DNA of 64,000 nucleotides from Lysobacter antibioticus (GTDB lineage: Bacteria > Pseudomonadota > Gammaproteobacteria > Xanthomonadales > Xanthomonadaceae): positions 3,205,349 to 3,269,348 of the forward strand of contig NZ_CP013141.1 of assembly GCF_001442535.1 (NCBI RefSeq), in the 5' to 3' direction. This document shows positions 1 through 31,543 of this stretch, piece after piece. The number at the start of each line of letters is the position of its first letter. Positions within the stretch are counted from its first letter, which is position 1. Position numbers and translations under genes: made by a program. Below the pieces are notes generated by a model. That model was not told the DNA's origin. It ran no database searches and saw only the letters and a list, made by a program, of their open reading frames with translations.

Positions 1-3000
1 TCATTCTCGTCGCCGAGCAGCTGTTGCTGCCACAAGGTGTAGTCGGCGTACTGCACCGGCAGCGGGGCGCGGATCGGCGCGCCGCCGTCGAGGCGCGCGG
101 CATAGGCCTCGGCCAGATCGCGCGCGAGCGGCGCCAGCGAGGCGCCGTCGCCGGCGATGTGGTGCAGCAACAGCAGCAGGGCGTGTTGTTGCGGGCCGAG
201 CCGGACCAGGGTCGCGCGCAGCGGAATCTCGTGGCGCAGGTCGAAAGCGTAGGCGGCGGCGGTGGACAGCGCGTGGGCGAGGCCGGCTTCGTCGCTGTCG
301 ATCAGGTCCAAGGTCGGCGCTGCATGATCGAGCACGTGTTGGCTGGGTACTTCGCCGGCCGGGAACACGATGCGCAAGCTTTCGTGGCGCTCGCACAGGT
401 CGGCCAGCGCGGCGCGCAGCGCGTCCACGTTCAGCTCGCCATCCAGGCGCAACGCCAGCGGCATGTTGTAGGTGGCGCTGGGGCCCTCGAACTGGTGCAG
501 GAACCACAGCCGGCGCTGCGCGAACGACAGCGGCAGGGTCTGCGGCCGCGGCATCGGCCGCAAGGCCAGGCGCCGGTGTTGGGCGGGATCGAGCGCGGTG
601 GCGAAGGCCGGCGAACGGTCGGGTGCTCGAACAAAGCGGCGGAATCGACAGCTCGACGTCGAGTTCGGCGCGGATGCGGCTGATCAGGCGGATCGCCAGC
701 AGCGAGTGGCCGCCGAGCACGAAGAAGCTGTCGTCGATGCCGAGCTGGGCGGCGTGCTCGTCGGACAGACCGAGCACTTCGGCGAACAGCGCGCACAGGG
801 TTTGTTCGCGCGGATTGCGCGGGGCGCGTTGGCTGGCCGGGACGAAGTCCGGCGCCGGCAGCGCCTTGCGGTCGAGCTTGCCGTTGGGCAATTGCGGCAG
901 CGCGTCGAGGACCACGATGGCCGTGGGCACCATGTACTCGGGCAGGCGTGCGGCCAAGGTCTCGCGCAGCGCTTCGCGATTCACCTCTGAACTGGAAACC
1001 ACGTAGGCGACGATCTGCTTCTGCCCCGGCCGGTCCTCGCGCACGATCGCGCTGTTGCGCGGGTAGCCGGCGCGGGCGAGCTCGGCCTCGATCTCGCCGA
1101 GTTCGATGCGGAAGCCGCGCAACTTGACCTGATGGTCGACGCGGCCGCGGTGGACGATGCCCCCGTCCTCGCGCCAACTGGCGAGGTCGCCGGAGCGGTA
1201 CATGCGTTCGCCGGCGACGAAAGGATCGGCGACGAAGCGTTCGGCGCTGAGCGCGGCGCGGCCCAGGTAACCGCGCGCCAGCCCCGGTCCGGCGATGTAC
1301 AGCTCGCCGGTGACGCCGGCCGGCACCGGCCGCAGCGCGTTGTCGAGCACGTACAAGCGCGTGTTCCAGATCGGCCCGCCGATCGGTATCGGCCCGTCCT
1401 CGACCTCGCGGCAGGGCCAGGCGGTGACGCCGATCGAGACCTCGGTCGGGCCGTAGGAATGGTGCAGCGGCCGGCCGATGTGGGCGGCGACGCGGCGATG
1501 CAGATCGGCCGACAGCGCTTCGCCGCCGCAGCCGATGCGGCGCAGGCGGGTGCAGGCGGCCGCGCTCGGTTCCTGCACGAACATCTCCAGCATCGAGGCG
1601 ACGAAGTGCACGGTCGTGACCTGTTCGCGTTGGATCAGGTCAGCGAGATAGGCCGGGTCGCGGTGGCCGTCGGGGCGCGCGACGACCAGACGGGCGCCAT
1701 GCAGCAGCGGCCAGAACAACTCCCACACCGACACGTCGAAGCTGGTCGGGGTCTTCTGCAGCACCGCGTCGTCGGCCTGCAGGCCGTACTCGCCCTGCAT
1801 CCAGGCCAGGCGGTTGACGATGCCGCGGTGCGGGATCACCGCGCCTTTCGGCGTGCCGGTCGAGCCGGAGGTGTAGATGACGTAGGCCGGGTGATCGAGG
1901 TGCAGCGGGCGCGTGCGTTCGGCGTCGGTTGGCGCGCTGCTCGGGAAACCGTCCAGCGAGGCGACGAAGCCGGCGTCGTCGACGCATAGCAGGCCCTCGT
2001 GTGCAGGCAGCCGTTCGACCACATCGCCGCGAGTCAGCACCCGCACTGGCGCGGCGTTGGCGATCATGTGGGCGAGGCGGTCGCTCGGGTAATCGGTGTC
2101 GAGCGGCAGATAGGCCGCGCCGCTCTTGAGCACCGCGCACAGGGCGACGACCAGTTCCAGCGAACGCGGCAGGGCCACGCCGACCAGATCCTCCGGGCCG
2201 ATGCCGTCGGCGATCAGTCGGTGGGCGAGGCGATTGGCGCGCGCGTCGAGTTCGGCGTAGCTGAGGCGCTCGTCTTCGAACACGACGGCGACGGCCTCGG
2301 GCGTGCGCGCCGCCTGCGCGCTCACCAGCTCGGCCAAGGTCTGTGCGGGCACCGCGTGTTCGCTCGCATTCCAGTCGCGCAGCACCTGCGTCGCTTCGGC
2401 GGCGTCGAGCAGTTCGATGCGGCCGACCGGCTGCTGCGCATCGGCGACGAAGGCTTCCAGCAAACGCTGATAACGGCCGCCCAGGCGCAGCACCTGCTCG
2501 CGCGTGAACAAGTCGGGGCGGTAGCTGAGCTTGAGCTGATACGGTTGGCCCGGGATCAGCGCCAGGCCGACCGGGTAATGCGAGGTGTCGCCGCCGTGGT
2601 GGCTGTGCAGGGCGATGCGCAGCGCATCGGGCGCGTCGTCCGCATCGTCGCCGACCGGGAAGTTCTCCAGCACCACCAGGGTGTCGAACAACTCGGCGTG
2701 CCCGGCCAGGCGCTGGATCTCGGTCAGGCCGAGGTGTTGGTGATCGAGCAGCGCCGATTGCTCGCTCTGCAGGCGTACAAGCAGCTCGCGCACCGATTCG
2801 TCCGGCCGCCATTGCAGGCGCAGCGGCAAGGTGTTGATGAACAAGCCGACCATCTGCTCGACGCCGGCCAGCTCCGGCGGGCGCCCCGAGACGGTGGTGC
2901 CGAAGGCGACGTCGCGACGATGGGTCAGGCGACCGAGCAACAGCCCCCACGCGGCCTGCACGACGGTGTTGAGGGTCACGCCGAGGCCGCGCGTGAGCCG

Positions 3001-31543: not shown

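Follow-up and report, generated by a model that had tools for sequence, protein, structure and literature searches.

WBP-29479A1, the closest described system, is produced by Lysobacter antibioticus ATCC 29479 on a (C-A-PCP-TE)11 assembly line with epimerization domains at modules 2, 5, 7, 9, and 10, encoded by the two nonribosomal peptide synthetase (NRPS) genes wbpA and wbpB (Sang et al. 2019, as described in PMC9581180 and PMC12447380). ATCC 29479 is likewise named as the source in PMC8625390, and three genomes with the WBP cluster are counted in PMC11451712. An 11-module WAP-like cluster, together with an ion of m/z 1508, was reported for both L. antibioticus strains studied in PMC4657364. 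According to PMC12447380, the ring of WBP-29479A1 is closed via the fatty-acid hydroxyl, and its activity falls upon addition of menaquinone, but not of ubiquinone. Other names also appear in the literature: a review citing Sang et al. 2019 calls the ATCC 29479 product WAP-8294A1 (PMC9659194), and for L. antibioticus Hz25, 'lysocin E' is the name given in a genome paper of 2026 (PMC13163355). We take both as putative naming slips. Other known systems are MBA1–MBA8 from soil metagenome, Paracoccus, Dyella, and Pseudomonas, which share the Gly-x-Leu-x-x-x-Trp motif or, in the case of the last two, were identified via this or shorter motifs; they differ in having come from a motif search followed by synthesis, and are compared here by description only (PMC12447380).

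The window analyzed here is a 64,000-nucleotide stretch of L. antibioticus DNA (NZ_CP013141.1:3205349-3269348; genome length 5,765,140 bases). It contains the larger part of an assembly line that is almost certainly the WBP-29479A1 biosynthetic gene cluster, specifying an 11-residue menaquinone-binding lipodepsipeptide.

Domain organization of the synthetase genes

Condensation (C), adenylation (A), epimerization (E), carrier (T), and thioesterase (TE) domains were called by HMM searches of the whole genome, and the methyltransferase (MT) by Pfam. In window coordinates, the synthetase genes and their domains are as follows.

3692..31543, (-) strand: wbpA-type NRPS gene, 9,283 aa, modules 1-7 (ORF and HMM domains)
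28478..31522, (-) strand: module 1, with starter-position C 30230-31522, A 28913-30106, and T 28478-28672 (HMM)
23804..28423, (-) strand: module 2, C-A-T-E, with A 25733-26962 and E 23804-25186 (HMM)
20669..23782, (-) strand: module 3, C-A-T, with A 21107-22345 (HMM)
17489..20614, (-) strand: module 4, C-A-T, with A 17930-19138 (HMM)
11534..17434, (-) strand: module 5, C-A-MT-T-E, with A 14729-15916, methyltransferase 14114-14440, and E 11534-12922 (HMM, Pfam)
8435..11503, (-) strand: module 6, C-A-T, with A 8879-10084 (HMM)
3725..8383, (-) strand: module 7, C-A-T-E, with A 5672-6910 and E 3725-5113 (HMM)
1..3711, (-) strand: 5' part of the wbpB-type NRPS gene, interrupted by the 36-N gap that directly precedes the window (ORF and HMM)
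2386-3693 and 1069-2262, (-) strand: C8 and A8 of the wbpB-type gene (HMM)
643-804, (-) strand: T8 of the wbpB-type gene, cut by a frame break (HMM)
3-542, (-) strand: start of C9 of the wbpB-type gene, in a different frame (HMM)
604..643, (-) strand: four single-base insertions relative to a second copy of this region, breaking the T8/C9 frame (alignment)
1531..1533, (-) strand: codon of A8 pocket position 299, Gly in the window and Val in the second copy, owing to one base at 1532

The wbpA-type gene thus holds seven complete modules, and the window part of the wbpB-type gene consists of C8-A8-T8 and a partial C9. The remainder of the wbpB-type gene lies at NZ_CP013141.1:3870940-3886942, 0.68 Mb from the window, and also ends at a 36-N gap. 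This second piece is organized as C8(partial)-A8-T8 / C9-A9-T9-E9 / C10-A10-T10-E10 / C11-A11-T11-TE (HMM, Pfam), and overlaps the left edge of the window over 3,417 bp at 99.47% identity. The complete line, encoded by two genes, comprises 7 + 4 = 11 modules with a terminal TE, one fewer than the roughly 12 anticipated in an earlier note made from the window sequence. That note had also placed the left limit of the line at 640, which is the frame break of module 8 and not the end of the gene. Alignment of the two copies yielded 23 differences, eight of them within 35 bases of the window end and another eight within 190 bases of the opposite end. The four insertions at 604-643 are taken as a contig-end error, and the three other substitutions are found at window positions 516, 1387, and 1532.

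Five E domains were detected in the whole genome (TIGR01720, E <= 0.001), in modules 2, 5, and 7 of the window and in modules 9 and 10 of the second piece; that of module 10 is located at 3874873-3875355, after A10/T10. The C domains following an E domain (C3, C6, C8, C10, and C11) carry the motif HH[IL][LV][LF]DG, and C2, C4, C5, C7, and C9 carry HHIA[AG]DG, a distribution that fits the positions of the E domains. Pfam confirmed the methyltransferase in the module 5 slice. A scan of both genes with the motif LE[IV]GxG[ST]G gave one hit in total and none outside module 5, and Pfam found no methyltransferase in the module 11 slice. The A3 core motif of module 7 (window 6473-6508, (-) strand) reads IHTSGSTG, compared with IYTSGSTG in modules 2-6 and 8.

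Elsewhere in the window, an exopolysaccharide-type gene set occupies 39308-54369 and encodes an export protein, a Wzz-like protein, glycosyltransferases, a cellulase-family enzyme, a polysaccharide transporter, and a sugar epimerase. A large two-partner-secretion (filamentous haemagglutinin-like) protein is encoded at 59719-64000 on the (+) strand and extends past the window end.

Pocket codes of the adenylation domains

To read the pocket codes, every A domain was aligned to that of module 5, whose code departs from the Phe code of GrsA in a single letter; the GrsA positions presumably fall on the sequence motifs where we placed them. Nine pocket positions were read, and the tenth letter, K, was appended to every code. 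The positions themselves are those given for GrsA in PMC11253843. For calibration we used two WAP-8294A2-type clusters (G002 and G019) and one lysocin-type cluster (G004, L. enzymogenes ATCC 29487, contig NZ_FNOG01000017.1), all assigned by the order of their codes and not by chemistry. In G002 and G019, the code order equals the published WAP-8294A2 peptide at 12 of 12 modules each, and in G004 it equals lysocin from Arg-2 to Thr-12 at all 11 readable modules, the pocket of module 1 being off the contig (peptides from PMC9581180). The codes of the present line are listed below.

Module 1: DAYWWGGTFK, Val
Module 2: DTEDIGAVDK, Arg
Module 3: DVWHLSLVDK, Ser
Module 4: DILQLGLVWK, Gly
Module 5: DAWTIAAVCK, Phe
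Module 6: DAMLIGAVCK, Leu
Module 7: DTEDVGCVDK, Arg
Module 8: DVWHGGSIGK in the window and DVWHVGSIGK in the second copy, Glu
Module 9 (second piece): DAYWLGGTFK, Val
Module 10 (second piece): DAAIVGEIWK, Trp
Module 11 (second piece): IDWVSSIDAK, A domain 3872191-3873384

These codes, together with the HMM and Pfam results, bear out what the earlier note had read from the window: Ser-3, Gly-4, Phe-5 with a methyltransferase and an epimerase, Leu-6, basic residues with epimerases at modules 2 and 7, and a module 8 lacking an epimerase. A Trp code with an epimerase at module 10, which that note had named as the check on its class assignment, is indeed found in the second piece (DAAIVGEIWK, with the TIGR01720 match). 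Given the Gly-4, Leu-6, and Trp-10 codes, the proposed class is supported, and the predicted peptide is a member of the Gly-x-Leu-x-x-x-Trp menaquinone-binding lipopeptides.

The codes of modules 1 and 8, which the earlier note had called unusual, turned out to belong to the family. That of module 1 is identical to the code of the last module in G002, G003, and G019, and the last residue of WAP-8294A2 is N-Me-Val (PMC9581180); it is thus the Val code of WAP-8294A2-type last modules. For module 8, the second-copy code DVWHVGSIGK is also present in G019, and DVWHIGSIGK occurs in G002 and G004; Glu-8 is found in the published WAP-8294A2-type and lysocin-type products (PMC9581180). The window therefore carries the family Glu code with one base discordant between the DNA copies, and a new specificity of module 8 was rejected, since the second copy with its one-base difference carries the family code. 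Base 1532 is not among the 16 differences clustered at the ends of the copies.

In L. antibioticus 13-6 (G001), eight of the 11 modules were read (2-7, 10, and 11; modules 1, 8, and 9 are outside the slice or at contig ends), and all eight carry the same codes as here. In BLASTP comparisons against three clusters, the A domains of modules 2, 3, 4, 7, and 8 best matched lysocin modules (module 8 only just), and those of modules 5, 6, and 10 matched lysocin and WAP modules about equally. The Val A domains of modules 1 and 9 are mutual best matches in the same comparison, at 77%. Probably, therefore, one of modules 1 and 9 acquired its A domain from the other.

Module 11 and the flanking genes

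A review gives the last residue of WBP-29479A1 simply as 'Aba' (aminobutyric acid). For this locus Aba-11 rests on the literature, the code of module 11 being one without calibration: nothing comparable to IDWVSSIDAK was found among the WAP- and lysocin-type clusters that were read. The A domain of module 11 lacks an Asp at position 235 and has one at 236, and its closest relative in the three clusters compared by BLASTP reaches 48% at best. A search of solved structures with a 700-aa module 11 slice returned general NRPS modules, the best among 60 of the 97 matches being linear gramicidin synthase A. This pocket may be likened to a code for beta-alanine. A literature search did not show that code string in the papers listed, and no printed code matching module 11 was found in passages of two papers on beta-amino acid A domains (PMC12305651 and PMC11253843). 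As described in PMC11253843, the alpha-amino group is held by Asp-235 in the majority of A domains; this residue is sometimes absent from domains for an alpha-amino acid and is kept in beta-amino acid domains. The missing Asp-235 is a hint, though no proof, that residue 11 is a beta- or gamma-amino acid. We put forward tentatively, at somewhat less than an even chance, that residue 11 is such an amino acid, loaded by the Asp-235-less A domain and perhaps supplied by a decarboxylase-like enzyme dependent on PLP. The gene for the latter and the exporter gene of the cluster are located as follows.

31666..33504 of the window, (-) strand: ABC exporter (membrane and ATPase), upstream of the synthetase gene
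NZ_CP013141.1:3869621-3870901, (-) strand: PLP decarboxylase-like gene (PF00282), flanked by mbtH and the second synthetase gene

The decarboxylase-like gene occupies that position in both L. antibioticus genomes (G000 and G001). Among 20 Lysobacter genomes, matches at E <= 0.001 occur in 12, and matches at at least 70% identity in 11, nine of these besides the two L. antibioticus; the relatives in those nine share 70-80% identity. In G002, G003, G004, G010, G017, and G019, the relative is separated from the WAP-, WAP-like, or lysocin-type locus, either by more than 100 kb or by lying on a different contig, and the locus slices of G002, G003, G004, and G019 contain no match. A role as the wbp-specific supplier of Aba is weakened by this occurrence in 11 of 20 genomes, in six of them away from the related locus. 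The ABC exporter has relatives with 70-81% identity in G002, G003, and G019, where they are located upstream of the WAP-type genes. A single MbtH gene was found in the genome; it lies downstream of the second synthetase gene, as in G002 and G019.

A rival reading of these pockets is that the locus encodes an undescribed menaquinone-binding member that differs from WBP-29479A1 at residue 1, 8, or 11. The window code of module 8, seen in no other cluster read, and the atypical pocket of module 11 would speak for it. However, module 1 carries the Val code, in agreement with the published Val-1 of WBP, module 8 in its second copy reads as in G019, the discordant base is one of the 23 copy differences, and strain 13-6 has the same module 11 code. 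We consider this reading very unlikely. The module order, epimerase positions, and codes 1-10 equal those published for WBP-29479A1 (PMC9581180, PMC12447380), and hence the 'possibly a new variant' of the earlier note does not hold.

Assembly split of the second gene

The window start abuts a 36-N run at 3205313-3205348, and the sequence right of this gap begins in the middle of C9. Leftward from the gap, the HMM search met no condensation domain until a weak match at 2926200. We surveyed 2965001-4115000 (1.15 Mb) continuously, the other 4.6 Mb being outside the survey, and found 12 gaps of 36 N, starting at the following positions.

3080113, 3205313, 3329735, 3442821, 3542992, 3637198
3727811, 3809951, 3886943, 3963761, 4037148, 4109894

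These gaps delimit 11 pieces with lengths of 125164, 124386, 113050, 100135, 94170, 90577, 82104, 76956, 76782, 73351, and 72710 bases. Such a strictly decreasing order has a chance of 1 in 11 factorial, about 2.5e-8. The surveyed 1.15 Mb is therefore a concatenation of size-sorted contigs joined by 36-N linkers, in which the order across gaps carries no meaning, and the split of the wbpB-type gene is an assembly artifact. This organization fits the short-read origin of the L. antibioticus ATCC 29479 genome, described as HiSeq 2000 reads yielding 5.77 Mb in one scaffold, CP013141 (PMC4657364). Our literature search for CP013141 and Lysobacter antibioticus found no paper besides PMC4657364.

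A true break of the wbpB-type gene by chromosomal rearrangement, which would leave the cluster dead in this strain, is highly unlikely. It would account for the distance of 0.68 Mb between the two gene parts in the deposited genome and for the frameshifted window copy at 604-643. Against it, both parts end at 36-N gaps and share the 3,417-bp overlap at 99.47% identity, and we rejected it because the piece lengths between the 12 gaps (3080113 to 4109929) fall strictly from 125164 to 72710.

The same artifact may bear on the published comparison of ATCC 29479 with strain 76, for which many rearrangements were reported (PMC4657364); part or all of these may stem from the contig order. For ATCC 29479, nine rRNA genes are given in PMC4657364, a number suggestive of three operons; two full 16S genes were found in the deposited genome, a count that is neutral or speaks against its being the genome of ATCC 29479, a probable identity. 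Another peptide synthetase gene, from 3543028, opens directly after a gap with an incomplete condensation domain and is likewise cut by the assembly.

Comparison with related lipopeptide systems

Compared with the WBP-29479A1 cluster (Sang et al. 2019, via PMC9581180 and PMC12447380), the present locus shares 11 modules in two NRPS genes, the order and pockets of modules 1-10, the module 5 methyltransferase, the E domains at modules 2, 5, 7, 9, and 10, and a single terminal TE. Among the features compared, no difference was found apart from the assembly split.

The lysocin cluster (lesA-lesB) is represented here by G004, which shares Arg-2, Ser-3, Gly-4, N-Me-Phe-5, Leu-6, Arg-7, Glu-8, Trp-10, and the epimerase positions; the codes of modules 2 and 7 are identical to those of its own modules 2 and 7. 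Lysocin differs in having 12 modules and Gln-9, Ile-11, and Thr-12, and its published ring is closed by Thr-1, for which Val-1 of the present line cannot substitute. The WAP-8294A2 cluster, represented by G002 and G019, shares Ser-3, Gly-4, N-Me-Phe-5, Leu-6, Glu-8, and Trp-10, and clusters of this type also share the upstream ABC exporter, the downstream MbtH, and the published ring closure via a hydroxy fatty acid. It differs in its 12 modules, in Ser-1, Asn-2, Orn-7, Asn-9, Orn-11, and N-Me-Val-12, and in a third epimerase in the second gene. Position 2 of WAP-8294A2 is (hydroxy-)Asn (PMC9581180, PMC12447380), not the D-basic residue that the earlier note had ascribed to it. By HMM and codes, the distinguishing lysocin features (12 modules, Thr-1, Gln-9, Ile-11, and Thr-12) were not detected in the present locus, nor were the listed WAP-8294A2 differences in module number and residues. 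The initial proposal of a 12-module cluster of the lysocin or WAP-8294A2 type can practically be dismissed: the codes of modules 2-8 and 10 are the same or nearly the same as in G004, which supplies the best or second-best A-domain match at these positions, but the line ends in a TE after 11 modules, with Val and not Thr or Ser at module 1, and Val and not Gln or Asn at module 9.

Further loci of this kind were noted among the Lysobacter genomes. G010 and G017 match a module 5-6 query at 72-73%. A WAP-like locus with a similar exporter and MbtH is present at G003:C1:3101862-3149276, and its middle part has no methyltransferase motif and no Phe code. Its codes read DGTKIGEVGK (module 3), DILQLGMVWK (module 4), DVQYVAHVVK (module 5, with no MT or E motif), and DFWNVGMVHK (module 7 by domain order, with an E domain); the pocket of module 6 was not found by the motif used, and there is an apparent frameshift near module 10. 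This locus may encode a relative without the menaquinone motif.

Proposed assembly of WBP-29479A1

The pockets found are Val-1, Arg-2, Ser-3, Gly-4, Phe-5, Leu-6, Arg-7, Glu-8, Val-9, and Trp-10, with Glu-8 judged from the second copy. From the match to the published peptide, we infer that the product is WBP-29479A1; its acyl chain, ring, and menaquinone target would accordingly be those of that compound. In the proposed model, the starter condensation domain would acylate Val-1 with a fatty acid. The chain would then be extended by D-Arg, L-Ser, Gly, N-Me-D-Phe, L-Leu, D-Arg, L-Glu, D-Val, D-Trp, and the last residue, published as Aba. Afterwards, the thioesterase would release the chain, with ring closure through the hydroxy fatty acid, which must be used given that Val-1 has no side-chain hydroxyl. 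The ABC exporter and the MbtH helper are part of the cluster, and killing would proceed by menaquinone-dependent membrane damage.

In summary, the wbpA/wbpB line gave a new and incomplete impression chiefly through the end-to-end placement of contigs, which cut the second gene in two. Neighborhood, synteny, or cluster calls across the 36-N joints are unreliable, including module counts for this strain. The WBP-29479A1 locus is already known, and a lead that resembled a new antibiotic is thereby settled, its product having already been isolated and its target being known.
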